Part shown: in pieces, positions 14,641 to 51,335 of the stretch
How the letters are laid out: each line of letters starts with the position of its first letter
Numbering within the stretch: the first letter of the stretch is position 1
Assembly: GCF_009905375.1 (NCBI RefSeq)
Contig: NC_133657.1
Coordinates: 69,562,257 to 69,626,256 of the forward strand
Origin: Apium graveolens
Lineage: Eukaryota > Streptophyta > Magnoliopsida > Apiales > Apiaceae
Length of the DNA stretch: 64,000 bases
Direction of reading: 5' to 3'
Position numbers and translations under genes: made by a program
The notes under the pieces: model-generated
What the model saw: only the letters and a program-made list of their open reading frames with translations
The model's database searches: none
What the model was told of the DNA's origin: nothing

Positions 14641-15596
14641 GCAGAGCTGCATCCAACCGACCCCCAGCTGCTAGGACCTTCAACATGACCGTTCAAGATG
14701 CTGTCCGAAACACTAACGTGATAGCAGGTACCCTTCTATTAAATTCCGAACATGCAAATGTCCTAATTGATTCTGGAGCAACCAAGTCATTTATATCTCA
14801 AGATTTTTCTAAAAAGTTAAAACTTAACGTCATACCCTTACGTGAGGTATTACAAGTGGAAATAACAAACAAAGAAATAATTCCTGTGAATCAAGTACAC
14901 CTTAAATGCAAGTTAAAATTAGAAGGGAAAGACTTCGAGGTTAACCTAATCCCATTTGCGTTAGGAGAATTTGATGTAATTTTAGGAATGGATTGGTTAT
15001 CCAGTAATGGAGCGCAAATAGATTGTGAACAGAAGAGGGTGAAGATAAGAGTGCAAAATGGAAAAGAAGTAGTGTTTAGAGGTCAACGACAGACCCATAT
15101 ATTTCTGACCATGCTACACGCGGAAAGGTTGTTAAAGAAAGGTAACGAGGCCTATTTAGCTTATGTGATGGATACGAAGAAGGAAGTTCCTAACATACAG
15201 AACATACCCATAGTAAATGAATTCGAGGATGTATTTCCAGAGAACTTACCAGGGTTGCCACCCGACAGAGAAATAGAATTTGCTATAGAATTAGCATCAG
15301 GAACAGCACCAGTGTCCAAGGCCCCATATAGGCTAGCCCTAGTTGAAATGAAGGAATTAGCTTCCCAAATGCAAGAATTATTAGATAATGGAATGATAAG
15401 ACCCAGTGTGTCGCCATAGGGACCGCTAGTACTGTTCATAAAGTAAAAGGACGGTAGTATGAGATTATGCATAGACTATATCGAGAAATGAATAAGCTGA
15501 CTATTAAGAATAGGTACCCTCTCCCTAGGATTGATGACCTATTCGATCAACTCAAGGGAGCTGTGCATGTTTCCAAAACAGATTTGAGGACAGGGT
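14568..15596 (+). pseudogene. pol: G1 pol, protease and N-terminal RT, truncated
   Basis: Open from 14568 to 15419, then broken. The aspartic protease shows VLIDSGATKSF (catalytic D at 14769-14771) and the flap-side motif DVILGMDWL. The RT region begins with the conserved linker FPENLPGLPPDREIEF and continues through APVSKAPYRLA and GMIRPSVSP, then a TAG (SPxGPL), a second stop and a small frameshift near 15480. The last recognisable residues are SKTDLR at about 15576-15593. There the sequence switches to LTR, so the RT palm with its YIDD-type active site is absent. Confidence 0.88.
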
Positions 15597-16413
15597 GATA
15601 ACCGAGATATGAAGGTGTCGTCCTTCTACTAGTAGAAAAGGTTACCTTAATCGTATTACGACTGATCATCGTATGTGGTGGCTCCAACGAGTGTCTTATT
15701 CTTCCAATTGGAATTGTGATGTAATACCGTAACCCAAGCCTAGGTGCTAGGTTTACTATTAAGGTATTCGAAGGATAATAAAATCCACTAAAGAATTGTT
15801 TTCATAAGAAGGTGTGTATCACCAAGGAAAACTATTTTCGAATAAAACATAATTATCATATATGATATTTTACGTGAGTTTATCATACAGTCATTTTCAT
15901 ACTGTACATTATTATGCTGGGCATTATAGCTCACACTTGTTTTCTTAAATTAACACAACACAACAGTGAATCAAGATGCCTACCATGAAACTCACAGCCA
16001 GGAAATGGGTAGGAAATGGCCAGCTATTCTGTAGGTTATTTGGTGTTGTACCACAGGTAGTCCGAATAAGCTGGATTGGCTTTCAGTTGTTTTTAGTTCG
16101 GCTTATTTATAAGTATGACTTATGTAAGGTAATAAATAAAAAATGTATATCTGGCTGACGAACTAGCCTTACTTAAAGGTTATTCCCCGGTAAGACTTAA
16201 TTACTTTTGGGTTGTAATAATTATCACTTTGTGGTTGATTTACTCTAGTAATCAATGGTTCGTTTCCAAGACAATAATCTGTAAGTGTGTGTGTGTGATA
16301 AGTGCGGGGTCGTAAAGTGTGAGTATTTATATAATGTGATGTGAGGTATGTGGTTTATAGTGATTTAGATGGCGTGGCCTCCGAGATTCCTGACCCCGAA
16401 TTTTGGGGCGCCG
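15592..16413 (+). repeat. LTR fragment replacing the RT active-site region of G1
   Basis: 822 bp colinear with the 3'-terminal part of the G1 LTR (21385-22204), differing by scattered substitutions. The left junction shares CAGGGT between RT (DLR-x-G codons) and LTR. The right junction stops 2 bp short of the LTR end and then resumes in RT at V-S-N-W-E-R-P. The normal RT between these points (roughly 125 residues) is missing. It carries an open version of the H3-like LTR ORF (15976-16158). Confidence 0.9.
15976..16158 (+). CDS. H3-tail-like short ORF in the displaced G1 LTR fragment
   Basis: A 60-codon frame starting ATG 10 nt after the conserved CAACAG acceptor-like site (AG ends at 15966). 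It begins MPTMKLTARKWVGNG. Counting after the initiator Met, K4, T6, A7, R8, K9 and G12 coincide with the histone H3 tail. The 3' LTR copy shows CGG instead of TGG at the next codon, so the ancestor probably read ARKRVGNG, like the RKRVGS of G3. The rest (QLFCRLFGVVPQVV...) has no recognised domain. The fragment is out of its LTR context, so this copy is probably not expressed as in an intact element. Confidence 0.5.
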   Translation: MPTMKLTARKWVGNGQLFCRLFGVVPQVVRISWIGFQLFLVRLIYKYDLCKVINKKCISG

Positions 16414-18513: not shown

Positions 18514-21500
18514 TATAATAACTCGAATTTTTGAGACTTCATAAAAACATTTAATGAATAGTAACCCTGACGGACGGGGAAATTTTTTTAGCCCACACTA
18601 TGTAGTGCATGAGAAAATGAGTTTCGGAGTTGATATTATGATTATACGTACCAAATGAGTGTATGTAAACGCTATTAGTTTTCGAAGAAAACGAACTTTA
18701 AAAAATGACCATATTTTCGAATCATCAAGGATTACGGGAATCACAATATAATTACGAATTTAAAATCCTACGGATTTATATTCAAGTATGATAATTCAAA
18801 GCATAAGGAATAAATACGAAAGGATTTACGTCGCGAACCATTTACGAGAAAGTATTACGAAAACATTTAAGCGACCGAGCGAACGCGTAAACGAGTAAAT
18901 AAACGTAACGCACTAACTAACCATTTTATCAAATAGTAAGCTAAGCATAGGATAATCAACCAAGGGCAAGCAAATAGTGAGCTAAAGAGCTAAACCAAGT
19001 GGCTTAGCTTGTAATCTACTAATGCTAGCTAGTTTTGTCTCTAAGATTAGCAACCAAGATCAAATCCTAGGATATATACTAAGCAATAACAATCAAATAA
19101 AATATATCAAAAGCCTCATTTCCAAGAAGCGACCAAGGAATCATCACAAAAACTCTCTCTTTCTCTCCCAACCTTCTTCATTCGGCTATTTCATCTAAAA
19201 CAAAGAAATCAAATTCAAACCTTCAAGCTCTAGCCATGGATAAATCCTCCCATTAATTCTCAAGCTTCTTACCAACCAAACTAAGGTAATATAAATCGTT
19301 CAGCTCTTTTTATCAAGGTTTGATGGGTGAAATAAAATCAAGAAAGTTGATAATGAATAGTAACTCTTCTTTGGTTTCTTGAATTTTTTGGTTGTTTTAG
19401 GTTCCAAAAACTATACTAAGCACTCCCAAGACTTCACCATCATCAATAACACATCTCAAGCTCTCAAGAAAGGTATAAATCTTTGACCCAACCTTATTTA
19501 AGATTTAAGTTCAAGATCCTTTTAGTATATAGTTGTAAACCTAGTTTTGGTGGGAGTATTGTTGTAATCTTGATGTTTAGCTAAGTAGATTTAAGGTTGA
19601 TTGTTGTTGCCTCAAGAACATGTTGTTATTAAGAGGAGTTAGTGTGATGATGATGATATGTTGATGGTTGGTGGTAGTATAAAGATTTAAGGCAAAAATG
19701 AAACTCCGGTCGTACCGTAATCTCGCTAAAACGAACAAAACATAACTTTAAGTTTCTGCAGAAAGTCCCGAAGATGTAAAATATAGTTTCTTGAAAAATA
19801 ACCCAATTTTATAATGATTGTTTAAGTGCTTGAATCACTTGATTCCGATTTACGAATCAAAAGTTATGACCGTTTTACTAAAAGTGATTTATGCGACAAA
19901 AACTGCTACGAATTACGAACTTTGAAAATATAAAGGATCGACTTAAAAATGTTCATAAATCATGAAATTTTAAAGAGAGTAGTAAATTGAGTTTCCTAAC
20001 TTTCATAAAAATTTCAAGTGAAAATAATGATTTTTAAATTTTATAAAAACATCGAAGCCGAGACCGCGCGATTAGAAACCGTAGAATCCATAAGAGGAGC
20101 CGACGACGAAATGAAAATGGACTTAAGATACTTTGAAAAAGGAAACGACCATAATGAGAATAAGGACTTAAAGAAATAATAAGGGTAAAATAAGTTGAGA
20201 GGGTGCATAATAAGTAGTGCATGAGTGCGAGTCGCCGTAAATTAGAACGGGACCTAACGAAACGAATTGTGTTTATGATTATAGATTTCTGAGCGGAACC
20301 TAGAGCATCCTCCACCTCGAAATACCCAGGCAAGTTTACGAACCCAACTCCACTTACTGTTGCGTTGTGAAATGATTGTTTTATTATCATTGCATAAATA
20401 CCATGCTTGCCATGATACGGAGTAATTAAATTTTCGCATAATATAGCGATGTTGTACGATAAGTATATATCGTGAAATGTTTAATTCCGCTATAAGCGTG
20501 ACGTATTATTATAAAACCGAGAGTCGGTCGGGATTTCAAAATAAAAACCCGGGAATGATTCCGGTGATATTACGGGACGATTAAAAGTCCATAGTAGTTA
20601 CGTATTAAGGGACCCAACGTCCACTTACGAAAAATTAAAACACCTAGAACTTTTATTAAAACGGTTTCCAAAGATCGTATTCCCTCAACTATATTTTATC
20701 GTTCGAGTAATAAATATCATATACCTACTCATTTATTATGGGAGAAGCATATCCCAACGATTATTTATTTCAAAACCGATTAAACATTAAAGGTTATTAA
20801 ATTACGTAAACATAAATTAGTTGAGGAATATTATTTTAAATATTCTTTTAAAAGTAAACTCCTTCGAGGTTTAATTATTTATCGATTATCATTTAATTAA
20901 TTATTATTTATTAAAGGGTTTATTTATGATTTAAAAATCATAGAACCTGATTTAAAATACTTTCTGATTTTCGGAAAATCATTCGAACAATTTCCAGATC
21001 GTCGAAGAATAGTATCTCAACTTATTTAAATATTTGAATATGGTTTCAAAAGAAACTCCCCCCTTATTTAATTATCTGTTGACAACGGTCAAGTCACATC
21101 CTTAGTACTTCCTCCGAAAAATTCGGAAGTACGTATACATATACATATATACACTAATAAAACAAGTTGTTTCTATCGATAAGAAAAATGCTTGGGGGAA
21201 CTTCGATGTGGTTCGAGTTCTCGAGATATGATAGAATTCTTTTAAAGGACAAGGGAGGGGTAGACTCTGGTACTATGTGTGCTAGATGGACTACCAAAGG
21301 TAGCGCAGGCGAAGGTACTCTGTGTACTCAGGAACTTGTGGAGTATGTGTATACCCAAAATGGACACGTAGCCCGAATGCGGCCAGGGTGATAACCGGGA
21401 TACGAAGGTGTAGTCCTTCTACTAGTAAAAAAGGTTACTATTATCATATTACAACTGATCATCATATGCGGTGGCTCCAACGAGTGTCCTATTCTTCCAA

Positions 21501-22206
21501 TTGGAATTGTGATGCAATACCGTAACCCAAGCCTCGGTGCTGGGTTTACTATTAAGGTATTTGCAGGATAATAAAATCCACTAAAAAATTGTTTTCATAA
21601 GAAGCTGTGTATCACTAAGGAAAACTATTTTCGAATAAAACATAATTATCATATATGATATTTTACGTGAGTTTATCATACAGTCATTTTTATACTGTAT
21701 ATTATTATGTTGGGCATTATAGCTCACACTTGTTTTCTTAAATTGACACAATACAATAGTGAATCAAGATGCCTACCATGGACTCACAGCCAGGAAACGG
21801 GTAGGAAATGGCCAGCTGTTCCGTAGGTTGTTTGGTGTGGTACCACAGGTAGTCCGAATAAGCAGGATTGGCTTTTAGTTGTTTTTAGTTCGGCTTATTT
21901 ATAAGTATGACTTATGTAAGGTAATAAATAAGAAACGTATATTTGGTCGACGGACTAGCCTTACTTAAAGGTTATTCCCCGGTAAGACTTAATTACTTTT
22001 GGGTTGTAATAATTATCACTTTGTGGTTGATTTACTCTAGTAATGAATGGTTCGTTTCCAATACAGTAACCTGTAAGTGTGTGTGTGTGATAAGTGTGGG
22101 GTCGTAAAGTGTCAGTATTTATATAATGTGATTTGAGGTATATGGTTTATAGTGATTTAGATGGCATGGCCTCCGAGATTCCTGATCCCGGATTTTGGGG
22201 CGCCGC
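18514..22206 (+). repeat. 3' LTR of G1 (3.7 kb) with gene-like leader layout
   Basis: Begins TATAATAACTCG (TG mutated to TA) and ends GGGGCGCCGCA; 3693 bp. A TATA-like AGGATATATACTA lies near 19068 and a CT-rich block near 19150. Candidate splice signals: donor AAG|GTAAT (GT at 19286); exon 19401-19472 between TTGTTTTAG and AAG|GTATA; exon 20285-20329 (45 nt) between ATTATAG and CAG|GCAAGT; acceptor-like AATAG ending 21759, 9 nt before the ATG of the H3-like ORF (21769), which here carries a 1-nt deletion. Right of the LTR lies the interrupted gag of G2. Confidence 0.88.
21769..21804 (+). pseudogene. Broken H3-tail-like ORF in the G1 3' LTR
   Basis: Same position as 15976 in the displaced fragment, but one nucleotide is missing after the second ATG. 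The frame closes after 12 codons. In the shifted frame LTARKRVGNG is still readable. Confidence 0.5.
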
Positions 22207-22806
22207 ACTTCTCTTCATCATTATTCTCATACTTACTCACAAATCTTGACAATTCTCTAAACTTCTTCTCATATTCCAAGACGGTCATACTTCCTTGTTT
22301 CAATTCCAGGAATTTCATCTCCATCTTTTTCTGCATATACCGAGGGTAATTTTTTTCCAAAAATAACACCTTAAACCTAGTCCAGGTAACTGGTTGAACT
22401 TCTTCCCAAGCTTTGACTGAATCCCACCAATAAATCGCTTCCCCTTTTAAGAAATACGAAGCATAAAGGTCTTCTGTTCGTCCCCTAGTCGAACCAATTT
22501 GAAAGATCTCTCCATTTCTCTTATCCAAGTGTTGGCTACTACGGGATCAGTGGTATCATGAAAAGCTAGAGGGTTCATATTCTGCAAAGTTTTGAAAGTC
22601 ACAATTCGTTGAGGTGGATCTGGTTGATGTTGGTGTTGATCATGGTTCTCTTGGTTTCGAAATTGTTGTTGTTGGAATTATTGTTGAAGAGTTTGTTGTT
22701 GTTGAGCAATTGCATTAGTCTGTTGTTGCAAAGTTTCCAATATTCGAAGGATATTGGGGTCGGTTGCAGAAGCAGTACTGGTATGATTTGTCTTTTTAGG
22801 AGGCAT
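22207..22806 (-). pseudogene. gag: G2 gag, N-terminal part, truncated by G1
   Basis: ATG at 22806, MPPKKTNHTSTASATDPN, then a Gln-rich stretch and the retrotransposon gag domain (PLAFHDTTDPVVANTWI, EAIYWWDSVK, FKVLFLEKNYPRYMQKKMEMKFLELKQGSMTV, KKFRELSRFVSKYENN). The first part is separated from the open frame at 22157-22528 by a frameshift near 22470; an in-frame TAA lies in the Gln-rich part near 22680. The coding match ends exactly at the G1 LTR boundary. It would form the capsid; the zinc-knuckle part is outside the window. Confidence 0.82.
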
Positions 22807-23477
22807 ATTTCAGAAAAGAAAATTGGTAACAAGCAGGTGTGATTATGACAGATAATTCAAAGCTAGGTTATCACAGGGTTAATTTGATCACATGATGTCT
22901 AGATTTTAGCAAAGTTATACATGATTCTAAGCAGGAAAGCAAAAATATAGGAAAAATGGGACAATGGGAATGCATAAGTAAGTTTGAAACATTTGCGATA
23001 ATCGCAAACATGATTCTGATATAACAGGTTTAACAAGGTAGTTAAGGGTATAGCAATCAAAGCCAAGGTGCCACGAAATTAAGGGAATCACATGCATTCG
23101 GATTTGTAAATGAGTTGATACATAATTATAGAAATAAAATTGAAGCTAAATTGAACGATAATGAAATGAAACGATAGTATATTAAGCATTAAAACAAAGT
23201 TATCTTACAACCCCACTATTTAAGGTTCGAATTTTTAAAAGTCAACTACATCATAATTTTAAAAAGAAATACAAAAACTACATAGTCAGCGTACACGGAG
23301 AATGTTATAGTGTCAGATGGCGCCAATGACGAAGAAGAATGCATCCTTTGCTGAGAAACAATATATACGAAGGAAAATATTGGCGACTTACTTGAATAAT
23401 ATCTACTTACACTTTTGTATTTCCTATATATATATATCCTATAACCTATATGGACTGTTCAAGGACTCTAAACCTTA
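22807..23477 (-). other. 5' leader of G2
   Basis: AT-rich untranslated leader between PBS and gag; no frame, repeat or known motif seen. Confidence 0.6.
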
Positions 23478-23489
23478 GCTCTAATACCA
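23478..23489 (-). other. Primer binding site of G2
   Basis: Reads TGGTATTAGAGC on the minus strand: the initiator tRNA-Met primer site with one C-to-T change. It lies 5 nt from the LTR edge at 23495. Confidence 0.82.
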
Positions 23490-25599
23490 AAACCTGTCAC
23501 AGCTGTAATAACCCCAATTTTTGGAAATTTTTGAAACCCTTATGAATAGTGTTTTTGCTGAATGAGAAAACTTTTCATGCCACGCTATGTAGGGGTTCTG
23601 TTATTGATCTTATGGGATATTATTAGTACTCTATGTGGTATATAAGTGTATGTAAAGATCGTCAGAATCCAATTCCGAACACTTTGATTTTTCCCGGAAA
23701 TCCACAATATACGGAGAGAATTGAGTATAAGGTAACAGGATAAAAAGGATTTAAATTAAAGGATTATAAGAGAGGATCATAAAAGGAATACAATGTATTG
23801 AGAAAGGTTAAGGGAACCTAAGTAATAAGATCCCGGGTATGATTCTTCAAACGATAAATGAAAGCGAAAGTTAAGCGAACCGTATAACAGATCAGCGGTC
23901 ATTAGGCAAACGATTAGGAAGTTAATCAAAGGGATTAATGGGAATGATGTCATCCAACCAATAGAAAGAAGACAAGGAAGGAAGGATGACATCATGAGGA
24001 TGAGGTAAGCATGACATGGGAAGGAAGGAGGTGTGGTTGAATAAGAACCACACAAATTCAAGGGCAAGGTAGTAATTTGCTAAATCAAATACAAATCAAG
24101 TCAACCAAGCCAAGTAAAAATCATTTCCATCAAAAAATCAAAACAACCAAGGCATGAGTTCATCTTGCTCACGGCTTTTTAGCATTTTCAAGGCATAGAT
24201 TTTTCAAAATCAAAGATCAAAGCTTCCTAAATTGGTAAGAAAATTCCCTAATCATCTTCATGCTTAGTTATGGCTATATCATGAGTTTAAGCCATTAATT
24301 CTTTCTCTAACTTCTTCATTTAATCAATGAAGAAGACAATGAATAGTGTTTTCAAGATTTTTAACTTGAAGTTTGTCTTGTTTTCTTGAAGATCCAAGCT
24401 TTCTTAAAACTTCTCCAAGCTTCTTAAGGCTTCCTAGCTCCACCCACCACTTCAAGGAAGGTATACCATTTCCAAACCCTAGGTTCATATATATTATAAG
24501 GTGATTTTGATGAGTAGGATGTTATTGTAGCTTGTTGTTATGATTTAGAGTTTGAGATTTGGTATGGTAGTGAAATGGAATGGTAATTGTTGTGGTTTTG
24601 ATTTAAAAGAACTTAAGCATGATTAAAGTTAAGTTTAAGCATAAGTATAAATGATTAAATTGGATTGGTTGGGGTTGTTATGATGTGATAAGGATGGATG
24701 TTGGTTGTATGTTGGATTTGAGGTTGATTTGGGTTGATTGTGGATGGTTTAAAAAAATTGGAAATCGCGTAAACATAGCCGTCGTAACGTCCGATTTTCT
24801 TTGGACTGTTTTTGTGCATAGCATTAGGACCCGAGAACCCCCTGCTAGATTATGACCACTGCCATGTTTAGATAGCTCATGTTACGAGCTTCGTTTTGAT
24901 ATGTAGTTCGTTCGATTCCGATGCACGGTTTAGGAGAAACGACCGTTTCAAGTAACGGCGTTTCGCGAACGAAACTTTCCCCCCGCCTTACTTTGAAATG
25001 TAGGTTAAAGACCACAAAGGGTTAATTAATGCATGAAACATTTATGGTAAGTGTTTTAGGCAGTTGGTAAGTCACTCGAGAAGGAATCGCTTTAAAACTC
25101 GTAAAGGTTAAATTATTAAAAATGGTGGAGCCGAGGGTACCCGAGTGACTTAAGCGAATCAGTGAGCGCAAAACAAGCGTTAGAGTCTAAGTTAGTTAAA
25201 GTATAGATTTACAAGTGACTTTGGTTTAATTCCAACTTACTTGTTGTTTATAGGTTACCAGACTCGTCCCGAGCCATTCGTAACCCCCAGTCGCTCAGGC
25301 AAGTATTCTATCCGTTATACTGTTGTTGTGATGAATACACTTGTATATGCATTATCTTGCGATAGATGCATGTTGGTTATTTAGCAAATTCTTGCGATAT
25401 ATTGTAGCATGTGATATGGTATATATGCATGCCTGTTTCATATTCTTGAAATATATATCTGTTGGTTCAGTTGATAATACCTATGCTAGAGGATAGCGGT
25501 AACTTGCATATACCCTTAGTATAGGGACCCAAAAGGTGAAAATATTTTCTAAAACCGGGAGTCGAGGATCCCGAGTAATCTTGTATATATGGATAAGGA

Positions 25600-25635
25600 T
25601 ATATATATATATATATTATATATATATATATATAT
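25600..25635. repeat. AT dinucleotide microsatellite
   Basis: An uninterrupted (AT)n/(TA)n tract in the G3 solo LTR. Corresponding tracts lie in the G5 LTRs near 49190-49212 and 59145-59172. Confidence 0.9.
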
Positions 25636-25741
25636 GGTTATAGTTTTCCAAACTATAAATCGAATAAGGTTTATTCGATAACTTTAACTTTATTTTATTA
25701 TTGAATATTATTTCGAATATTATTCGAAGGCGTATGACTTT

Positions 25742-26124
25742 TTATTTTATTTATTGAATATTATTTGAATATTCATTTGAGGATGTATGACTCCTTTATT
25801 TTATTTAATGAATATTATTTATAATATTCATTCGAGGTATTATGACTCAGCTTATTTTATTTATTGAATATTATTTGAATATTCATTTGAGGATGTATGA
25901 CTCCTTTATTTTATTTAATGAATATTATTTATAATATTCATTCGAGGTATTATGACTCAGCTTATTTTATTTATTGAATATTATTTGAATATTCATTTGA
26001 GGATGTATGACTCCTTTATTTTATTTAATGAATATTATTTATAATATTCATTCGAGGTATTATGACTCAGCTTATTTTATTTATTGAATATTATTTGAAT
26101 ATTCATTTGAGGATCTATGACTCC
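25742..26124. repeat. 110-bp tandem array in the G3 LTR
   Basis: Three full 110-bp units starting at 25742, 25852 and 25962 and a partial fourth at 26072. Each unit is two related halves of about 55 bp, each with a GAATATTATTTGAATATTC-like palindrome and a TATGACTC box. Adjacent units are almost identical, so the array expanded recently. G5 LTRs carry the same repeat as single units of about 53 bp. Confidence 0.9.
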
Positions 26125-27572
26125 GATTATTTGCTGAGATATATTCTTTATTTTATTAAAGAATAAGGTGTAAATAATCAAACTTATTTTCGATTATTCA
26201 AATAAAGATAATACTTTCATATAAGTATATCTTTGGTTATTTAATACTCGTTTCAAGTATAAATTTTAATACTTCTACTTCAATTATTTTTTTATAAAGA
26301 TTATTCTTTATGGGAATATTATTTAATTAATAATATTCAGATATTTTCTAATATTATGGGGACTGATTTACTTCATTAAATCAGCTTTACTCCAAACACT
26401 CTTTAAAGTGTTTTCGAGTCTTCAAAGTGATTTTTAAAAGTCAGAGCGGATCCCAAAACTCATTTTTATATTTAAGATCTTCCTTTTTAAGGGGATTTAA
26501 ATACTCGCTCAAAACCTGGGGAATCCAGCTCTGTGGTGTATTTTATATTCGGAACGAGGTTGCAGATTTGGTAAATGAATTGATTACTTGCCCAACGTTC
26601 GGGAAGTAAGCCCATCTCATTGAGTCGGCATAAGCGACAGGCCGGGGTACGGTCTATTATTGTGTAAGTGGCTGGGTGGCAGTCCATCAACGCGTGAGGG
26701 ACCGGGGTACGGTCGAGCGCGAGGTCCTAATGCGGCCAGGGTGATGACCGGTGAGGAATTCATCCATCTACAGTAGAAAAGGTTACTTATTGGTATCTTT
26801 GCCTGATCAGCGAGATATCGGGTTTATGCCAAAATTCTTTTCCTTTCCAAAATTCATTGGATGTTTCAAACTCTGTTCATACTTTGCATAACAGAGATTC
26901 CAGGAAATGTTTAAAGGGATATATATATGTGGATATATATATATATCGGGACTAAATAAAGTATCTCATAACTTTTTCATTCAATAATATTTCAAAGATT
27001 GAATCTATTCAAGTCTTATCTTGTGGTCTCATCAGTGGGATGAACTTTTGAAACTGATTATAACTTGAATGGTGGTAGTTCAAGTAGTATTGGGAAAGAT
27101 ATAAGTATATTGGGGTATTTGGTAACCTCATCTTTTAAACTTATATCTAATTAATAATTGTCTTATGAATGACAAAGATTTTCAGAAAAACGTTGAGACA
27201 AGGTTAGATATATGAGATCACCTTGCAACGATATTTTTATACAGTTATACACTGGGATTTTGTGTATATTATGCATGGAAGAGGACTTCCAATATTTTGA
27301 AAAGTATATATGTATATATACTGAATATTTTGCGACTTCATCGCATTAAGATATCAAACTTGGTTCATTTCTTTTGACCAAGACTTTCATGAGTACTATG
27401 AGAAGGCTCATATACTAGTAAGTATATACTAGTAATTATCTTACACACGATAAAAGATTCTAGTAAGTATCCATTTAGATACTTATATTATTGTTATCAC
27501 TATATATTATCTTGCGAGCTGTAAGGCTCACTCTTGCTTTATTTCTTCATCACACAACAACAGTTAGGAAAG

Positions 27573-27695
27573 ATGGCCAGACTCCAGCAGACCCAGCGCA
27601 AGCGCGTGGGAAGCGTCCCGCGTCTTCCCGATGATGTTGTGGCTGCTATAGCTGCAGAGGTAGATCTATTGGTAGATCAGGCATTCTATTTTTGA
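27573..27695 (+). CDS. H3-tail-like short ORF in the G3 solo LTR
   Basis: A 40-codon frame with its ATG 10 nt after a strong acceptor-like site (TTGCTTTATTTCTTCATCAC then ACAACAACAG). It begins MARLQQTQRKRVGSVPR. After the initiator Met, A1, R2, Q5, T6, R8, K9 and G12 coincide with histone H3 ARTKQTARKSTGG, and a Pro-Arg follows about where H3 has APR. The remainder (DDVVAAIAAEVDLLVDQAF) has no known match. It is GC-richer than the surrounding LTR, as expected of sequence once coding. Nearby LTRs hold equivalents in the same place and register, so this is unlikely to be chance; whether it is translated is unknown. Confidence 0.6.
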   Translation: MARLQQTQRKRVGSVPRLPDDVVAAIAAEVDLLVDQAFYF

Positions 27696-27970
27696 GAATC
27701 AATTATGTATAATTATAACTTGTGGCAGATAATGGCAATTAACTGTAAATTTATCAAGTAATCATTTTGGGTTGTAATAATTTTAAATTGTGGATTCAAA
27801 GACTTGTACTTATTTCAATTTCATCTCTGAGACTATAACGGGTTGTGGTGTGTGTTAGTGTGGGGTCACAGCATAAGGTTATTATTATTAATTAAGTGAA
27901 GTGATATTGTGGAAAGAAAGACCGTGACGACCCGGATCCCCGACCCCGGATCTGGGGGTGTTACAACAGC

Positions 27971-29486
27971 CCCAAAATAACACTAGCAAAATATAATTGA
28001 ATAAATACAAAGTTATTACAAACGGCTGTTAACAACAGAATCCAAGATCGCAAAGGTCTAGGGTTTGAAATGTCCCATACTACAACTATTACAACTTATA
28101 TTTAAAGCTACCGGTCCTCACACAAATGCCAACTATACTACCTGAGCTCTCACATAAGCCTCAGCAACTCCAACGGTAGACTTACGAGCAGTCTGCTTGA
28201 ACCTAACCATACTTGCTAGCTGAAATGACATAAATGAAAAGCAAGAAGTGAGCCAAGCGCTCAACAAGGTAAATCATAAAACATAATTTAACATCATAGC
28301 AATTTATATCTAGAAATTGAGGTGTATGGCATCATTATTCAAGTCAAAATATTTGTAACCAAATCATTGCTCAAAATCATTTTATGACGCTACGGATTAC
28401 AGCCGGAGATCAGCCGCGAAGAAATCCCGAACCTCGCTGGGTTCTTAACTATTTAATGGGATCCCTAGGCATCTTTTAAGTCTAACATAATAAGTGTGAA
28501 AGGGACTTGCGTCTTAGTCCAATTCACCAATCTCAAGAAAACATTCTTTTATTTAAAGAGCAATTAACTTTTATAAAACTGATGTCAAGGGGAACTTTAC
28601 AAAGATCTATACAAATGGGTTTAAATCATCAATCAAAGATTTCGAGTTAAGAAACTCTTATTAGAATGATGTGACTTCTCACTAGCAGGGTTTTCAAGGA
28701 TAGTCAGCAATGGTTTGATAACCAAGGTAGAAAGTATTGAAAAAGAGTCATAACGTTGTTTCACAAGATAGAGGTCTCAAATTTGAGGGTTATATCAGGG
28801 ATATATCCAGTGAAAAAATTTTGGTATGATTGTAAGGATTTATGTAAAGAGTTGGTAACTCGGAGGTGTAAGAATAAAAAGAATAGCGGTTAATCAAGAG
28901 AGATCACATATGAGGTTTTATAGTTTATAAGGGTATGATTTTTATAAGTGTATACACAGCACTTGCAAAATCTCAATCTAAAATCAGAATATTTGCAACA
29001 ATATATCATGGTGACAACAATATTAAAAAGATCAATATACGAGCATGCTATCATAATTCAAAGGACGGTTCGGAACATTTGCAATATCTTAATAGTTCCG
29101 AATAATTCTCAATGTATATCTTGAGAGGGTCAAAGGAAACTTGCCTTAAGAAGGCTGGACTAACTCTCGTCTTGATCGTGGAAGCAACCGGGAGCACTAC
29201 TCGACTTTGACGGCAAGCTTACTACCTTCCCCTGAGCCTACACAAAATATTAGACCTCGTCAAGATACACTCTCACGGAAACTCCATCATGATTAAAGAT
29301 TTCAAAACATATTGGCACATAGGTCTAACTACACATTCGACTCTTTACTAATCACTTATTATGCTCAAATAATCATTTAGGATCACATAACACATTTAAT
29401 CACATAATATAAAACTATGATATAATGGTGCACTATTGAGTATTGAATGATCTCACTCAACCAACACGATTGACTCGAAGTGCTAC
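27971..29486 (-). repeat. G2 5' LTR, 3' portion
   Basis: Continues the 9-bp LTR end at 23495-23503 across the G3 insertion (the target duplication ACAGC is counted once). It runs to the G4 insertion at 29486. On the minus strand it shows an exon-like block 29145-29237 between TTGTGTAG and AAG|GCAAGT, then the acceptor-like CATTTCAG and the H3-tail ORF. Its upstream part is outside the window. Confidence 0.75.
28133..28210 (-). CDS. H3-tail ORF in the G2 LTR: near-exact histone H3 N-terminus
   Basis: A 25-codon ORF, MVRFKQTARKSTVGV followed by AEAYVRAQVV and a TAG. Residues K4 to T11 (KQTARKST) are identical to histone H3 and R2 is also kept, so 9 of the first 11 residues after Met match ARTKQTARKST. 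This includes the methylatable K4 and K9 and phosphorylatable S10. It lies in the G2 LTR downstream of a T-rich tract and CATTTCAG acceptor-like site, the same place as in G3 and G5. It ends at once after the tail; no histone fold is encoded, so it cannot be a histone gene. It is either the relic of a captured H3 gene start or a tail-mimic peptide. Confidence 0.7.
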   Translation of the reverse strand: MVRFKQTARKSTVGVAEAYVRAQVV

Positions 29487-32400
29487 TGTAAGAACCCAAA
29501 ATTTTGACATTTGTAAAAGACCTTTATGAATAGTAACCTTGCGGTTTAATAAAAACTTTTGCGACCACACTATATACGAGTTTTTAATTTAAGATTCCGA
29601 GTTGATATTGTGATTATACGTACCAAATGAATGTATGTAAACACTCTTCGTTTTCGAAGAAAACTAACTTTGAAAATTGACCGTATTCACGAACCATCGA
29701 GGATTACGGGAATCACAATATAATTATGAATTTAAAGCCCTATAGATTTATATCCAAGAAAGATACTTAAAACATAAAGAATAAATACGAAAGGATTAAC
29801 GCCGCAAACCGTTTACGAGAAATTATTACAAAAATGATTAAGTGACCGAACAAACGCGTAAACGAATAAATAAACGTATCACACTAACTAAACATGGTAG
29901 AAAAGTAACCATGGTTATTTTATCAAATACTAAGCTAGAGATGTAGGAATGATCATCCAAGGCTAAGAATAGTGAGCTAAAGCCTAAAAGACCAACTAGT
30001 TAGCTTGTAACCTAGGAATGCTAGCTAGAATTGTCCAAAGATTTGCCAACATTATCTATTCCTAGGATATATACTAGAAGATATACAAGTCACATAATAC
30101 AATCTTCCAAGAGAAGCATTCAAGAAGCAACAAACTCTCTCTCTCTCTCTCACACAAAACACCATACTGATTTTCAAGAACACCATGGAAAGAAAACATC
30201 ATATGTCATGATCTACTCATTCAAAAATCACTAAATTTTTACTAAACCTCTTTCATATCGTGGGTAAGTCACACACCCAATTTCATGCCCATCCATGAAG
30301 TTCTCAATTTTATAAAAATGTTTTAAGTTGAGAGTGAATAGTAACTACGAAAATCACTAACTTGTTTTCTTGATTTTTCATGAAAGATTAAGGCTCCTAA
30401 AGCTAGACCAAGGCTTTATCAAGGATCTTAGGACTTTATTAAGTACTAAAAAGCTTCAAGGAAGGTATAAACATTCATCCAAACTTTGTTTAAGTTTTAA
30501 GTTTCAAGAAAAGTAGGGATCTTGGATATAAGTATGGTTTTGATGATTGATTTGATATTATCTTGATGTTTAGTTAATTAGTTTTAAGGTTGATGATTGT
30601 TGCCTCAATAACATGATGTTCTTGAGAGGATTTAGTGTTGATATGATTATTTGATGATTTTTGATGGTGGTATAATGATTTAAGACGTAAACGAAACTCG
30701 AATCGTAATCGTAACCTCGTTAAAATGAACAAAACTCAACTTAAGTTTCTGCAGAAGTTCCTGAATTTATAAACTGTATTTTTTTAAAAACACATGATTA
30801 TTATAGAAAATGTTATAAGGATCGTTTAGGCGCTTGAATCGCTTGATTCCGATTTACGGATCAAAAGTTAGGACCGTTTTAGTAAAAGGGATTTACGCGA
30901 CAAAACTGCTACAAATTACGAACGTTTTAAATATAAATGATCGACTTAAAAATATTTAAAAATCATGAAATTTTTACAGAGATTAATAAATATAGTTTAT
31001 TAGCTGAAATAAAAATTTCAAGTAAAAATGTTGATTTTTAAATTTTATAAAAATGTCGGAGCCGAGGTCGCGCGGAGTATGAACGTCAAAAACAACCCCC
31101 TGTTCGGAAATTGCCACTTGGGATTTTCACCCATGTTACCAGAAAACTATTTTCAAATGATGTGTTCTAAATTTTTTCTAGATCGCGCATGCAAAAACTT
31201 TATATAGTTAACGGTTTGAGAGATATCAATGTTTTAGTGAAAGCGGTTTGAATAGTAAAACTTCGCAGTTGACCGAACTTTCGAAATGCTTTTCATCTAA
31301 TTAAATTCATTTTATCGAAATGAAACTTTTAAGATAAATATTAAAAGCACTCAAGAAGCTCCTCGAGGTGGTTTCGTATTAAAATACTAATTTTATGATT
31401 TATTAAAAATGATAGAGTGCGAGTCGCGTAATAATATTATTCGGTAAAGTCAAATCTTGAAGACCACTTTGACCGTCCGTTTCGACCAAGGAGTGATACT
31501 TATTTCGAGTCGGTCGAATAATGAAAATTATAAAGTATTGAACTTATTAGGAATATAAGTTGGTGATGAGAGTAGGAATACTGATTAAGATTATGATGTT
31601 TGTTGATTAGAAAATCCGGAACGAGAGGAAGTCAGGAAACGTATCTTGGACTCTAGGCAAGTTTTCATACCCTAACTTTTTGAAACTATTGTGTTGTGTT
31701 TGTTTTCAAATAATGACGATATATACATGATGCTATATTTACGATGTTTCACGAATTATGTTATATAATATCATACGATATGATAATGATTTTGGTATAT
31801 TAATATTACCGAATTTCAATCGATAACGCTAGAGAGTAGCGTTGTATATATAACGAGTATATTTTAGACCGAGGATCGGTCAGTATAATTTTATGAAAAC
31901 CCGGAAGTATTTCGGAGGTGTTTTATTTAAGAATACAAACGCTATAGTAGAGCGTGATATATAAGTTATAAGACCGAGAGTCGGTGAGTTTTTATAAAGT
32001 ATAAACTTGGGAATCATCCCGGAGATGTTTTGGACAATTAAAAGTCCGTACTTATTTTATTCCAAGTGACTCGACGTCCACTTACGAAATATTAAACACC
32101 TCGAACTTTTATTAAAGCAATTCCCAAAGATCGTATTCCCTCAACTATACTTTATTGCTCGAATAATAAATATTTGTTAACTATTCATTTATTATGAATG
32201 AAGTATTCTCCAGCGAATATTTATTTCAAACTCGATTAAATATTAAAGATTATTATATTACTTAAACATAAATTAGTTGAGGAATATTATTTCAATATTC
32301 TTTTAAAAGTATAACTATTCGAGGTTTAATTATTTAATAATTCATATTTAATTATTAATTATTTATTAAAGGATTTATTTATGATTTAAAAATCATAAAA

Positions 32401-33603
32401 CCTGATCTAAAATACTTTCTGATTTTCGGAAAATCATTCGAATAATTTCAAATCGTCGAAGAATATTATCTCGACTTATTTTATATATTTTGAATATAGT
32501 TTCAAAGGAAACTCCCCCTTATTTAATTAATCTGTTGACAATGGTCAACTCACATCCTTATTACTTCTTCCGAAAATTCTCGGAAGTACATATATATACA
32601 TACAAATCAAAGTGTACCTATCCACAAGCAATATGCTTGGAGAACAATATAAGTTCCAGATATATGATGGGATTTTTACAAGGACAAGGAGGGGTAGACT
32701 CCAATACTTCGTGGACTGGGGAGACTACCAATTTACTACCACATGAGAAGGTATCTTATATACTGATGAACATGTGGAGTATGCGTACCTGAGAGAGATG
32801 GACGGAAAACCGTGTCTTGAGAGGGATAGACTCGAAGTGTGTACCTGAGAGGGATGGACACAGAAAAGGCCCGAATGCGTCCAGGGTGATAACTGATAAT
32901 AAAAAGGGAATCATCCTTCTACTAGTAGAAAAGGTTACTATTTCCGTAGTACGACTGATCATCGTGTGCGGTGGCCCCCGTGAATGTCCTATATTCTTCC
33001 AATTGGAATTGAGATGCAATACCGTAACCCAAGCCTAGGTGCTGGGTTTACCATTAAGGTATTTGCAGACTAATAAGTCAATCAAAGAATTATTTTGAAA
33101 AGAGGTGTGTATCACCAAGAAAACTACTTTGAATAAATACGTATCCTTGTACGAAGTAATATAATTTCCTTTAACAGTCTTTTCACACTGTTGATTATTA
33201 TGGCGGAGCATTATTGCTAACTCTTGCTTTCTTTTAAATGTCACAACACAACAGATTACCAGTATGCCGGCATGGGACTTAGTCACTTGAAATCGTGGGG
33301 AGAATCCCTTACAACTTTATCTCAGGTGGACCAAAGTATCCATATAGGTACAAGATGTTAGAAGTAATTATTATAACTTCATGTAGAGGTTACGAATATT
33401 GTTTAAGATCCTGTAAAGTACATTTAAGTTTTAATAACATATGATACTTATTTTACGTCATTTCTAAGGCTATAACCTGTGTGTGTGTGAGATTGGGGGT
33501 CTGTGATATGGAATTATTGGATTATTGAGTTAATGCAGGTTACACATGATTGAAGGATTGTGTGATGACCCAGATTCCTGACCCCGGATTTGGGGGCGTT
33601 ACA
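29487..33603 (+). repeat. 5' LTR of G4 (4.1 kb)
   Basis: TGTAAGAACCC...GGGGGCGTTACA, 4117 bp. TATA-like GGATATATACTAGAAG lies near 30065, followed by a (CT)n block near 30131. Candidate donor CGTGG|GTAAGT (GT at 30264); exon 30387-30464 between CATGAAAG and GGAAG|GTATA; exon 31611-31656 (46 nt) between TTGATTAG and CTAG|GCAAGT; acceptor-like CACAACACAACAG ending 33254, then an ATG at 33264 whose H3-like frame is destroyed. Three copies of a GAGAGGGATGGACAC-like repeat lie at about 32788-32870. Confidence 0.9.
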
Positions 33604-36600
33604 GAAATGGTATCAGAGCAATAAGTTATAGTACTTAGAGACGAGAGTGTTAGGAATCTATCTAAATGCGAGATTACGTAAGAGCTCATATAGAGCTCAT
33701 CATTGGACTACAGGATGTAGCCCCAAGGTGTAGGTTAGGATAAGTGTATATTTGAGGTATTAAAGTGTGACTAATAGAACCACTGGAGATTATCAGAATG
33801 ATGAGAAGAAAAAATAGAATCATATAAGATTTGGAAATTATGTGGATGTAGAACTCGGAGCTGAGTCTCCAGGGCATTTGGGGGAAATGGTATTATCAAC
33901 ACCAAATTTTCATTTGGACAACACGAACCTTGTTACTTGTAGTTCTTTATAGGTTGCCCATGAGAGGGCATCACATGTGAGAACCATGAAGTCTAATTAT
34001 TAATATACAGTTGATGTTATTGACCCAAACTAGTTGAAGGAGTCATTTTACCAATAAGGATGTGAACATCGTATTAATCACGAATTCACCAGAGATAGTG
34101 TCCAATATACCCTTAAGGATATTTTCTATTAAGGAAGATTTGAATGTAATATAAGAATGTTATCGAGACGAATACACTACATGATATTATAAGTGTGCTT
34201 AACATGTAAGGTTATGATGCTTTAGCTCAGAGATCGAGAGCATCGAGAATTGATGGCATGTCTACAATTGAATGGCGTAAGATTACAATGAGCGATAGTT
34301 CGATCTTAGAACCTTTTAAAAGGATAGACCAGTGAGTCTAGAGTGGAATTCTTCGGTAGAAATGATGTCAGAGACTACGTATATATACTCGTAGACCTCT
34401 AATATATTTGGTAATGTATGTTCACTTACACACACATGCCACCAAACTTATGGACTGCATTAAGATCCCTAAGAGATCTCTTTGATCTGTTCCCAAGGAG
34501 AACTGACCACTTGTAGTTAGTAACGGCTGCGTGTAGCAGGCCTCTATCGGCTTAAAAGATGCTTTTGGAATATTTCTGAGTAAGGTCTTCGAGGTAAAAC
34601 ACCTGAATGACATATATACGTGCGAAAGTCAAGTTAGTAAGCGATTTTAAAATGATTTGAAAGAGACACTAGCTGAAATAAAGAATTACAAAGACGCAGA
34701 GGTGGTATCATCCTCAGACGGATAATAACGAGAGTTAGGATAATTTGTGAATTATTTTGGTACCTACTAATTGTCATGTTACTCCCTCCAAACCTTTGAT
34801 CATTCGTATTGCCTTGATAAGTCATATCGGGAAATCATTTTCGTTCCCTACTTTGAACTTCTGATGTGACCATCTTTAATAGTCTTTCTCTGCATCAGGA
34901 CTTATTCAATTCTTTTAGTTGATCAATGAACTTTCATTCATATATTATGATCTTCTTGTTCGGCTCAGAGCTATTTATACTTTATTTCAATCATCCAAGG
35001 AATTTTTTTTCTCTCCTCAATTTATTGAAAAATATTTATAATGAATATCTTCATTTGATTCTTCTTTCATACTTACTCTTCTCAGTCGAGATTGTAAATA
35101 TTTAACAAATTGTTAAAAACATGGATGATTAAATACCCATAGATTCCTCGAGAATCCTTTTTTCTAATCGGGATGAAATTATGTATTGAACTTTGAAATC
35201 ATAGTAAGGGTATCAATTTGATATTGGTATTCCGAATTCAATTCTATTTGAGAATCTAATAAAGTATATGAACGAGGACACCTCTGAGTGTACCCTTTTA
35301 TTGGCAAGAAATATTTGATAAGAGGCTATCGATTTTTCTGATGCCAAGACCACTCGATTCAGAGTTATAATTGTCTTTCTCGAACCAAATTGGAAAACTC
35401 TTTATTTTGAAATCGTCATCCAGGTAGCCACAAATTCTTTAGTGGTTACGATATTGAGATTTTCTTTTTTGAACAAACTGAAATATGCTTAGTTGTATAT
35501 GTTCTCATGAATGACTAGTTAATGTCCTAACTAGTCGAAATTTTAATTAATATGATGAAAGTCTAGCTAATCATTCTAGCTAGTTGCTATGGGCCAAACC
35601 AATTGTGCTGGCCATTTTCTTAGCTGGTTGATAATATTGTTTGATATGGACTAGTTATTATTTTGCTAGTTCCACTTCCAATCAAATTTTTATTATTCCA
35701 TAATACATTATATATGCAAGATTAATCGTTGATGGAATTTTAAAAGAATTATTTAATTGAGACCTAACTAGGTCGCCCACTCAAAAGAGAATTCATATTC
35801 AGTTTTATGAAATATTTTGTTCATGAAATGTTTTATTCTTTCGTTTATATAACGAATATCCATTTAAAATCATAAAATGATTGAAGAACAATATACTTCC
35901 TTATTTGTTAATTATTGGATAGAATTCCTTCTTTCAAAATAGCATCTCATTGAAACCTCAATGGTTAACCTTTGGTTGAGAATGTTATTCGAAATTTCTT
36001 TCATTACTTGAAAAGAAAAGTATTCTTTCATTGGGGAAATCTTACAAGTATTGTTCGTAGGATGTTATTATTCAGCAATCAATGCTTTCAAGGAATATTC
36101 TCTATAACATCATAATATAAAATTCTAAGGACATTAAAGGATAATCCTTGTTGTATTCTTCCTTTCAAGTAATAAATCTTTTGAGTGTTGCGACTCTTTT
36201 ATTCAGAGCTCATTGTTTCTTCAGATATTAGATTTTGAAATCTTGTTAAGAATGTCTAAATTACATCGACATCGTGAAAATCATTCTTCCAAGGCTAATT
36301 GCCTTCCGAACAAAGAGAGGTATAGTTAATAACTGATTATTGTAATATGAGATTGAAAAACTCAGTGTTATGATGGTGTAATCGAAGCATCGTGATGAGT
36401 AAATTATTTTGAAAAGGGAATACCATGTTGGGTTATCATCCTAAGGATCTTTAACATGATTATTAAAGAACGATAATAAAGATACCAACGTGATTAGTAA
36501 GGTACGCTTCTGTGAAACACTATCAACATAAGTACTAATGAATTCGAGAAAGACCAAGCATGTATGAATTCGAGGAATATGATTTTGTGTCAAGTATAAT

Positions 36601-38763: not shown

Positions 38764-38776
38764 AAAGGGGGAAGAC
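38764..38776 (+). other. Polypurine tract of G4
   Basis: AAAGGGGGAAGAC directly before the 3' LTR, again following CCGGGACGGAATCC. Confidence 0.85.
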
Positions 38777-41700
38777 TATAAGAACCCAAAATTTTAACAT
38801 CGGTAAAAGACCTTTATGAATAGTAACCTTGCAGTTTAATAAAAACTTTTGTGACCACACTATATACGAGTTTTTAATTTAAGATTCCGTTGATATTGTG
38901 ATTATACGTACCAAATGAGTGTATGTAAACGCTATTAGTTTTCGAAGAAAACTAACTTTGAAAATTGACCGTATTCACGAACCATCGAGGATTACGGGAA
39001 TCACAATATAATTACGAATTTAAAACCCTGCGGATTTATATCCAAGAACGATACTTCAAAACATAAAGAATAAATACAAAAAGATTTACGCCGCGAACCG
39101 TTTACGAGAAATTATTACGAAAACGATTAAGCGACCGAACAAACGCGTAAAACGTATCGCACTAACTAAACATGGGAGAAAAGTAACCATGGTTACTTTA
39201 TCAAATAGTAAGCTAGAGATGTAGGAATGATTATCCAAGGCTAAGAACAGTGAGTTAAAGCCTAAAAGGCCAACTAGTTAGCTTGTAATCTAGGAATGCT
39301 AGCTAAAATTGTCCAAAGATTTTCCAACATTATCTATTCCTAGGATATATACTAGAAGATATAAAAGTCACATAATACAATCTTCCAAGAGAAGCATTCA
39401 AGAAGCAACAAACTCTCTCTCTCACACATAAAACACCATGCTGATTTTCAAGAACGCCATGGAAAGAAAAATTCATATCTCATGATCTACTCATTCAAAA
39501 ATCACAAATATTTAACAAAACCTCTTTCATATCATGGGTAATCACGCACCAAATTTCATTCCCATTGATGAAGTTCTCACTTTTATAGAAATGTTTTAAG
39601 TTGAGGGTGAATAGTAACTCCGAAAATCACTAACTTGTTTTCTTGATTTTTCATGAAAGATTAAGGCTCCTAAAGCTAGACCAAGGCTTCATCAAGGATC
39701 TTAGGACTTTACTAAGTATTAAAAAGCTTCCAGTAAGGTATAAACATTCATCTAAACTTTGTTTAAGTTTTAAGTTTCAAGAAAAGTAAGGATCTTCGAT
39801 ATAAGTATGGTTTTGATGATTGATTTGATATTATCTTCATGTTTAGTTAATTAGTTTTAAGGTTGATGATTGTTGTCTCAATAACATGATGTTCTTGAGA
39901 GGATTTAGTGTTGAGATGCTGATTTGATGATTGTTGATGGTGGTATAATGATTTAAGACGTAAACGAAACTCGAATCATAATCGTAACCTCGTTAAAACG
40001 AACAAAACTCAACTTAAGTTTCTGCAGAAGTTCCCAAATTTATAAACTGTAGTTTATTAAAACGTAACTCTTGATTATGATAGATAATGTAATAAGGATC
40101 GTTTAGGCGCTTGAATCGCTTGATTCCGATTTACGGATCAAAAGTTATGACCATTTTAGTAAAAGAGATTTAGGCGACAAAACTGCTACAAATTATGAAC
40201 TTTTTAAATATACATGATCGACTTAAAAATATTTAAAAATCATAAATATTTTACAGGGAGTGAGAAATAGAGTTTATTAGCTGTCATAAAAATTTCAAGT
40301 AAAAATGTTGATTTTTCAATTTTATAAAAATGTCGGATCCGAGGTCGCGCGGAGTATGAACGTTAAAAACAACCCCCTGTGAGGAAACTGCCACTTCGGG
40401 ATTTTCACCCCCTGTTACTAGAAAACTATTTTCAATTGATGTGTTCTAAATTTTGTCTAGATCGTGCACGCGAAAATGGTGTAACAATTGAGTTAACGGT
40501 TTGAGAGATATCAATGTTTTAGTGAAAGCAGTTTGAATAGTAAAACTCCGTAGTTGACCGCACTTTCGAAATACTTTTCGCCTAATTAAATTCATTTTAT
40601 AAAAATGAAACTTTTATGATAAATATTAAAAGCACTCAAGAAGCTCCTCGAGGTAGTTTTGTATTAAAATAATAATTTTATGATTTATTAAAAATGATAG
40701 AGTGCGAGTCGCGTAATAGTAATATTCGGTAAAGTCAAATCTTGACCACTTTGACGGTCCGTTTCGACCAAGGAGTGATACTTATTTCGAGTCGGTCGAA
40801 TAATGAAAATTATGAAGTATTGAACTTATTAGGAATATAAGTTGGTGGTGAGAGTAGGAATACTGATTAAGATTATGATGTATGTTGATTAGAAAACCCG
40901 GAACGAGAGGAAGTCAGGAAACGTATCTTGGACTCCAGGCAAGTTTTCAAACCCTACCTTTTTGAAACTGTTATGTTGAGTTTGTTTTCGAATAATATCG
41001 ATATATACATGATGCTATATTTACGATGTTTTACGAATTATGTTATATAATATCATACGATATGATAATGATTTTGGTATATGGATATTACCGAATTTCA
41101 ATCGATAACGCTAGAGAGTAGCGTTGTATATATAAGGAGTATATTTTAGACCGAGAATCGGTCAGTATAATTTTTATGAAGACCCGGAAGTATTCCGCAG
41201 GTGTTTTATTTAAGAATACAAACGCTATAGTAGAGCGTGATATATAAGTTATAAGACCGAGAGTTGGTCAGTTTTTATAAAATATAAACTCGGGAATCAT
41301 CCCGGAGATGTTTTGAACCATTAAAATTCCGTACTTATTTTATTCCAAGGGACTCGACGTCCACTTACGAAATATTAAACACCTCGAACTTTTATTAAAG
41401 CAATTTCCAAAGATCGTATTCCCTCAACTATACTTTATTGCTCGAATAATAAATATTTATTAACTATTCAATTATTATGGATGAAGTATTCTCCAGCGAA
41501 TATTTATTTCAAACTCGATTAAATATTAAAGATTATTATATTAATTAAACATAAATAAGTTGAGGAATATTATTTCAATATTCTTTAAAAGTATAACTAT
41601 TCAAGGTTTAATTATTTAATTATTAATTATTTATTAAAGGATTTATTTATGATTTAAAAATCATAAAACCTGATCTAAAATACTTTCTGATTTTCGGAAA

Positions 41701-42256
41701 ATCATTCGAATAATTTCATATCGTCGAAGAATATTATCTCGACTTATTTTATATATTTTGAATATAGTTTCAAAAGAAACTCCCCCTCATTTAATTAATC
41801 TGTTGACAACGGTCAACTCACATTCTTAGTACTTCCTCCGAAAATTCTCGAAAGTACATATATATACATACAAATCAAAGTGTACCTATCAACAAGCAAT
41901 ATGTTTGGGGAACAATATAAGTTCCAGATATATGATGAGATTCTTACTAGGACAAGGAGGGGTAGACTCCAGTACTTCGTGGACTGGGGAGACTACCAAT
42001 TAACTACCACATGAGAAGGTTTCTTATATACCGATGAACATGTGGAGTATGCGTACCTGAGAGGGATGGACACAAAACCGTGTCTTGAGAGGGATAGACA
42101 CAAAGTGTGTACCTGAGAGGGGTGGACACAGAAAAGGCCCAAATGCGGCCAGGGTGATTACCGATAATAAAAAGGGAATCGTCCTTCTACTAGTAGAAAA
42201 GGTTTCTATTTTCGTAGTACGACTGATCATCGTGTGCGGTGGCTCCAGTGAATGTC
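38777..42256 (+). repeat. 3' LTR of G4, interrupted by copia-2
   Basis: Colinear with 29487-32984 of the 5' LTR, beginning TATAAGAACCC. The exon-like blocks are kept: 39660-39737 and 40893-40938 (46 nt) with the same AG|GTATA and AG|GCAAGT borders. It stops at GTGAATGTC where copia-2 begins. The last part, with the H3-like position, is outside the window. Confidence 0.9.
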
Positions 42257-51319: not shown

Positions 51320-51335
51320 GTCTCCCCTCCTTAAA
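51320..51335 (-). other. Polypurine tract of G5
   Basis: Minus strand TTTAAGGAGGGGAGAC directly before the LTR start TGTAATAACCCC, preceded by the conserved CCGGGACGGAATCC. Confidence 0.88.

Follow-up and report, generated by a model that had tools for sequence, protein, structure and literature searches.

Accessory open reading frames (ORFs) located 5' of gag have been described in Tekay/Retrosat2-type elements, with no function known in the available text of the descriptions (PMC3485330, PMC11728184, PMC7264820, PMC6317226). The Tekay/Del 5' accessory ORFs (e.g. rice Retrosat2 ORF0, RIRE3 and RIRE8, and the 5'aORF of sunflower Tekay 13-2) are, like the celery ORF treated here, fast-evolving sense ORFs between the PBS and gag of long-LTR gypsy elements, as far as the available text shows (PMC3485330, PMC11728184). 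The available parts of the four descriptions (PMC3485330, PMC11728184, PMC7264820, PMC6317226) make no mention of an LTR exon or of histone likeness, and it is in this that the celery ORF is set apart from them, with a first coding exon that apparently lies within the LTR and encodes a histone H3 tail. Fixation of host coding sequence in a gypsy lineage is also described for the m6A demethylase domain of orchid Ty3/gypsy elements, whereas the celery piece is a tail of ~12 codons without a fold, in an exon within the LTR (PMC9289625, available text). By a proposed analogy, VANC of the Arabidopsis VANDAL transposons is a transposon protein countering host silencing, but in the text available it binds element DNA motifs, while the proposed celery target would be the H3-tail machinery (PMC10398659). 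Our searches of open-licence papers, judged by title or abstract start, listed no report of an LTR-encoded H3-tail exon. H3-tail mimics are found among viruses and host proteins (e.g. influenza NS1 and the self-mimicry of G9a), where, as in celery, a short non-histone stretch imitates the start of H3 in the region of K4 or K9; the celery tail differs in that it is predicted to form the true N-terminus, matches nearly the full first 12 residues, is LTR-encoded, and probably comes from an H3 gene. In spliced retroviral mRNAs (e.g. avian retrovirus env), a 5' exon likewise starts the downstream ORF, giving the start codon and first residues, whereas in celery this start exon is part of the LTR and encodes a peptide that is itself conserved.

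The locus lies in a stretch of 64,000 nucleotides of the celery (Apium graveolens) genome (NC_133657.1, positions 69,562,257 to 69,626,256), referred to here as the window. A first-pass annotation had claimed, without giving a strand, that a gypsy LTR in it encodes the H3 N-terminal tail with no histone fold, and both points were borne out. On the minus strand, from 28210 to 28133, 25 codons and a stop encode MVRFKQTARKSTVGVAEAYVRAQVV, in which KQTARKST equals H3 residues 4-11 and R2 matches as well, just as that annotation had read it. Anchored at the Met, the first 18 residues agree with those of H3 at 12/18 positions, and the best value reached in 150 simulated first-order Markov windows of the same composition (dinucleotide make-up) was 8/18. 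The host of the ORF is a minus-strand gypsy LTR, whose 3' end is ~245 bp away. The features of this H3-type element, with ^ marking an exon boundary, are:

28142 to 28210, minus strand: LTR exon 1, from ATG to CAG, MVRFKQTARKSTVGVAEAYVRAQ, 69 nt, read from the sequence
28140 to 28141, minus strand: GT of the donor-like CAG^GTAGTA at the end of exon 1, phase 0, read from the sequence
28211 to 28275, minus strand: pre-ATG block (GGCTCAC..pyrimidines..TTTCAG CTAGCAAGT), from the alignment of LTR 3' parts
23504 to 27965, plus strand: solo LTR within the last bases of the H3-type LTR, with the target duplication ACAGC at 23499-23503 and 27966-27970
23478 to 23490, minus strand: PBS-like TTGGTATTAGAGC of the element holding the H3-type LTR
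23290 to 23350, minus strand: start of exon 2 (the 5' accessory ORF) after TTTCTCAG^, QRMHSSSSLAPSDTITFSVYAD, truncated thereafter
22760 to 22806, minus strand: gag start of the H3-type element (MPPKKTNHTS...), degenerate

Read unspliced, exon 1 extends to the stop at 28133. The block in front of its ATG resembles a branch-point/pyrimidine/AG arrangement, and may be either a leader-intron acceptor or a core promoter. Because ACAGC is duplicated on both sides, the solo LTR was inserted later into the H3-type LTR; past it, the element continues with its LTR end, PBS, second ORF and gag. The solo LTR was also considered as the LTR holding the ORF and was rejected, its target duplication being that of an insertion into the H3-type LTR.

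The exon is not confined to this LTR type. Alignment of the 3' parts of seven LTR copies in the window gives a common order of a GCTCACTCTTGCTTT-like block, AG, a short spacer, ATG, ORF and AG^GT, and in four LTR types the exon is open, in phase 0, up to a donor-like [CG]AG^GTAG. The homologous features are:

27573 to 27659, plus strand: exon 1 in the solo LTR, MARLQQTQRKRVGSVPRLPDDVVAAIAAE, donor-like GAG^GTAG, phase 0, 87 nt
57215 to 57298, minus strand: exon 1 in one LTR of the element at 46947-61268, MNRTKLPIRERIGNVPQFPIGVDVAVAE, phase 0, 84 nt
47259 to 47342, minus strand: the same MNRTKLPIRERIGNVPQFPIGVDVAVAE-type exon in the other LTR of that element
15976 to 16056, plus strand: exon 1 in an LTR fragment, MPTMKLTARKWVGNGQLFCRLFGVVPQ, phase 0, 81 nt
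12397 to 13083, plus strand: exon 2 (5' accessory ORF, 228 aa) of a second clade, opening at TGTCAG^GAACCC without an in-frame ATG there

In the open exons MARLQQTQRKRVGSVPRLPDDVVAAIAAE, MNRTKLPIRERIGNVPQFPIGVDVAVAE and MPTMKLTARKWVGNGQLFCRLFGVVPQ the next codon after the donor AG reads V, and exon copies at 21769 and 33264 are broken. Likeness to H3 is weak outside the H3-type clade (5-7/12 for the three window strings scored), so the distribution of the exon is wider than that of the good mimic.

Several other structures were recorded in the window. The gypsy element at 46947-61268 (minus strand) has 4.37-kb LTRs that are 98.2% identical, and an internal region of only ~5.6 kb in which the ORFs are broken; the ORF that comes first past the PBS has 73 aa, is acidic and lacks Met, as expected for a second exon. 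A plus-strand reading of its LTR pair (46947/56903) was rejected, as the PBS and polypurine tract show the minus strand. Another gypsy element has its LTR pair, 93% identical, at 29485-33604 and 38775-42256, the latter cut at 42257, apparently by a copia-type LTR. Tandem repeats of a 55-bp unit, differing in copy number from LTR to LTR, occupy 25688-26157, 48840-49142 and 58796-59100 in LTRs of the family under study, and an LTR 3' end at 15585-16413 (93% identical to 21378-22205) sits between the protease and reverse transcriptase ORFs of another gypsy element. Long, unassigned minus-strand ORFs rich in Ser, Pro and Gln occur at 585-4625 and 44089-46835, the former group adjoining a Ty1/copia pol ORF at 5233-8577.

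Genome-wide, the 3.33-Gb host assembly was searched with a degenerate codon pattern for KQTARKS (AARCARACNGCNCGNAARTC), with the reversed pattern as control, which gave 737 matches (351 + 386) against 0, and the prospect raised by the first-pass annotation that the H3-like string might be private to one copy was thereby removed. Of 100 places listed for the pattern, 48 on contigs C1 and C2 only were sampled, 47 of which carry the LTR-type exon and one of which (L070) is a true H3 gene, left out of the LTR-type counts. The ATG is in frame in 40 of the 47 LTR-type copies and absent in seven, and an AG^GTA donor-like site, always in phase 0, follows at 63, 66, 69 or 81 nt in 37, with ten lacking AG^GTA. 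The natural forms of exon 1 include MVRTKQTARKSTGRQGEDHLRAQ (L097), MVRFKQTARKSTGGDAEAYVRAQ (L055), MVRFKQTARKSTGNAEAYLRAQ (L007) and MVRMKQTARKSTGGESSNQSMYHMRAQ (L047). Many of the 100 listed places are paired at a spacing of ~9.31 kb, and the LTR ends are identical within L009 and within L010 over the 321 and 326 nt compared, which speaks for recent insertion. A 20-mer downstream of the ORF gave 239 matches at <=2 mismatches (control, 8), and KQTARKST is kept in 30/30 loci fetched through it, these loci being exact 20-mer matches from one young subfamily on contig C1, many of them the LTR pairs of a single element.

Copies were also chosen by exon 2 alone. The exon 2 query P0001 gave 7164 first-look candidates, the best 150 of which were scored and 20 of those, spread down the list, examined; exon 1 is present in 19/20 (it was not found in L104), with an ATG in 18 of these 19 and KQTARK intact in only nine, and an AG, read by eye from the printed ends, stands just before exon 2 in 17/20. 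For the second-clade query P0010 (8885 candidates, the best 150 scored, 20 of those examined), a diverged exon 1 is present in 18/20 copies (e.g. L114, MPTMRTTARKRVGNGQLFRRLFGAVPQ^V) and was not found in L107 and L119; 15 of these 18 have an MP(T/I)M start and ten have TARK in frame.

A sense ORF lies between the PBS and gag in 13/15 PBS-bearing copies, as it does in the second clade in the window. These elements are probably of Tekay/Del type, judged from their RT sequence and architecture. In L009, Pfam finds a Ty3-type RVT_1 (3.2e-31) and RT_RNaseH_2 (7e-10), and the integrase end looks chromodomain-like by eye, with no Pfam chromodomain match even at E 10 in this degenerate copy. The LTR pairs of the window are long (above ~3 kb), aligning over 3.5 and 4.4 kb; the H3-type LTR was measured over part of its length.

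Exon 2 (QQ.xHSSS....) is present in the same 13 of 15 PBS-bearing copies, the exceptions being L081, which retains only its first bases, and L001, which has other sequence. An acceptor AG stands immediately before it, in phase 0, in 11/13 (L002 and L046 are without), so that a donor (37/47) and an acceptor (11/13) of compatible phase, all phase 0, are conserved across copies. Among annotated proteins retrieved by a profile search with exon 2, the predicted junction (..VIAQ^QRAHSSSS..) is found in four of the seven gene models with exon 2 sequence examined, two from Heracleum sosnowskyi and two from celery. The Heracleum models P0019 (POM88_001164, 155 aa, from a cluster of 13 sequences) and P0026 start MVRTKQTARKSSNGV(A/T)EQYVIAQ^QRAHSSSST, and the celery models P0017 and P0027 contain MV(R/I)FKQTARKTCDA(D/N)AYVRAQ^Q(S/R)AHSSSSSG; P0021 (celery) and P0028 (Heracleum) have other sequence upstream of exon 2. 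A distant exon 2 relative, P0035 (contig of 1912 nt), has the same VFQ^QRAQ start and may show the accessory ORF, possibly with the exon boundary, in another plant group. AlphaFold2, run with ten sequences, models exon 2 with three helices (mean pLDDT 68.8), for which Foldseek returned 0 matches in the PDB at E <= 0.001, and Pfam gave the exon 2 proteins no family above cut-off and no histone family; a PDB sequence search, of whose 98 matches 60 were listed, gave nothing in that list but H3 with E values of 0.11 and above. No histone fold follows the tail: 21-27 residues in, the ORF stops or is spliced, and the exon 2 proteins match no histone family. Judged from sequence, the H3-like ORF is probably no free peptide but an exon, with which the coding part of the element's 5' accessory ORF begins. 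The earlier idea of a tail-mimic peptide thus survives in part: a mimic of the H3 tail does recur in several diverged LTR subfamilies, but the donor, the acceptor and the gene-model junctions make a free peptide of 25 residues improbable.

The LTR exon probably derives from the start of an H3 coding region. The first 12 codons of subfamily C1 agree with the celery H3 gene L070 in 32/36 nt and 8/12 codons (25/36 nt and 4/12 codons for subfamilies C0 and C2), and some forms continue as STGGDA, which together favor descent from an H3 coding start; convergence on it is possible. Capture of an H3 gene start, as suggested in the first-pass annotation, is in this measure retained, as a probable descent. 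If descent is the right reading, Ala1 is favored to have become Val by a single C-to-T step.

The leading residues of the exon are unevenly conserved with respect to the remainder. Between Apium (L097) and Heracleum (P0019), 11/11 leading residues are identical, as opposed to 3/12 in the rest of exon 1 (one-sided Fisher p 0.0003) and 74/120 (about 61%) in exon 2 (p 0.007), with the split at residue 11 chosen only after the sequences had been inspected. Between subfamilies, when copies were compared without selection on the motif, codons 2-11 show seven synonymous differences and one non-synonymous (C0 vs C1, 3 + 1; L105 vs L097, 4 + 0, counted by eye), giving p 0.0006 against an assumed 27% synonymous; L104 and L070 were dropped from the comparison of subfamilies and H3 gene. 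Single copies within one subfamily show neutral decay (14 synonymous, 55 non-synonymous, p 0.23, L104 and L105 dropped), as expected if the gene is maintained in active source copies alone. Among the H3-type forms compared, some of which were found through the KQTARKS pattern itself, V1, R2, K4, Q5, T6, A7, R8 and K9 are invariant, position 3 is T, F or M, and position 10 is S or T. Their likeness to the H3 tail, 8-11 of the first 12 residues in a non-histone protein, is above chance.

These observations bear on a first alternative, in which the exon is real and spliced and the H3 likeness is a relic, the exon contributing no more than a start codon and a basic N-terminal end (serving nuclear import or the binding of RNA) and engaging no H3-tail enzyme. 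Exon, start and donor are retained despite weak H3 likeness in the second clade and in the window's other LTR types, as such a relic would predict; however, no part of the protein is better conserved in the H3-type clade than the H3-like residues, and the changes in these residues between subfamilies are mostly synonymous, so we regard this alternative as rather unlikely.

An unspliced upstream ORF in the leader, tuning the translation of gag, would also be short and stand upstream of gag, as the 25 codons of the window copy do. Contig-derived ORFs that reach upstream of exon 2 read through its acceptor unspliced in 5/5 cases (P0002, P0018, P0030, P0031, P0035), and these five may be genomic DNA. 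Such an ORF would, however, have no need of H3 residues, nor would it account for a conserved donor and acceptor in phase 0, for the junction in four gene models, or for an exon 2 that has no start codon near its beginning in P0001 (from L002) and P0010; L009-type copies do have an in-frame ATG near that point. We hold a role of this kind to be improbable.

Selection could instead act on the DNA as an inner splice donor (C^GTAAGTC at R8-K9-S10), with the peptide as a by-product. The string CGTAAGTC is nearly invariant among the KQTARKS places listed, and the celery model P0006 differs from the others in using this inner GTAAGT donor, which joins MVSTKQTARK to YVRL. The site is nevertheless absent from the second clade and from 3/4 other LTR copies with an open exon, the codons upstream of it vary synonymously, which leaves the residues in place, and four models use the outer donor; moreover, the H3 gene itself carries CGTAAATC at the same place, so that much of the string is inherited. 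An inner donor as the conserved feature is thus very improbable. Short as the string is, chance is rejected by the 737 matches against 0, by simulations that stay at or below 8/18 and by the same N-terminus in Heracleum, and a single captured H3 fragment in one dead copy by the 737 matches.

The reading that we prefer is that of an LTR exon spliced to the accessory ORF, with a captured H3 tail that serves as decoy or handle for the H3-tail machinery, to which we assign a probability of roughly 0.55; our confidence in the exon anatomy is higher than in this reading as a whole. Long-LTR gypsy elements of Apiaceae would, according to it, carry a small coding exon in the LTR, ~0.4-0.6 kb upstream of exon 2, which in one large clade would encode, after Met, V-R-x-K-Q-T-A-R-K-S/T, i.e. 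the H3 tail with Ala1 changed to Val. Transcripts, whose existence we infer, would be spliced from [CG]AG^GTAG across the LTR end and PBS to the acceptor that opens the 5' accessory ORF, giving a product of ~150 residues: the H3-like tail at the N-terminus, then a linker rich in Ser, a region predicted to form three helices, and finally an acidic stretch. An H3 gene start would most likely have been the source of the tail, which selection would have retained in active lineages. Val, like Ala, permits removal of the initiator Met, so that the product could start with an H3-like free N-terminus. Because the conserved residues are those contacted by H3K9 and H3K4 enzymes and readers, the likeliest job of the tail may be to engage such proteins (the machinery that methylates H3K9 or H3K4) by acting as a handle or a decoy substrate, the effect being weaker silencing of the element or an accessory protein steered to chromatin. 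A narrower proposal, which we put forward tentatively as possible, is that the clade captured the first H3 codons as an LTR exon and that these persist in at least two genera of Apiaceae as the tail of a spliced protein that competes for the H3K9 (or H3K4) methylation machinery, i.e. as a histone-mimic anti-silencing protein. Sunflower and grass 5' accessory proteins are predicted to be nuclear in the available text of their description, which fits a chromatin-directed role (PMC11728184). The element's own chromodomain, which had also been suggested as a partner of the tail, is a less likely one: in plant gypsy elements, type II chromodomains are reported to be without the first residue of the aromatic cage and, in most cases, also without the third (PMC3350952), and the degenerate L009 gave no Pfam chromodomain match.

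Tekay-type 5' accessory ORFs are widespread in plants, and the H3 tail gives one of them a specific, testable partner. The finding suggests that an element subject to H3K9-based silencing itself encodes a copy of the substrate on which that silencing acts. A further suggestion is that, in such elements, coding sequence can start within the LTR, a place rarely inspected in annotation, so that other 5' accessory ORFs may have true N-termini that went unnoticed.
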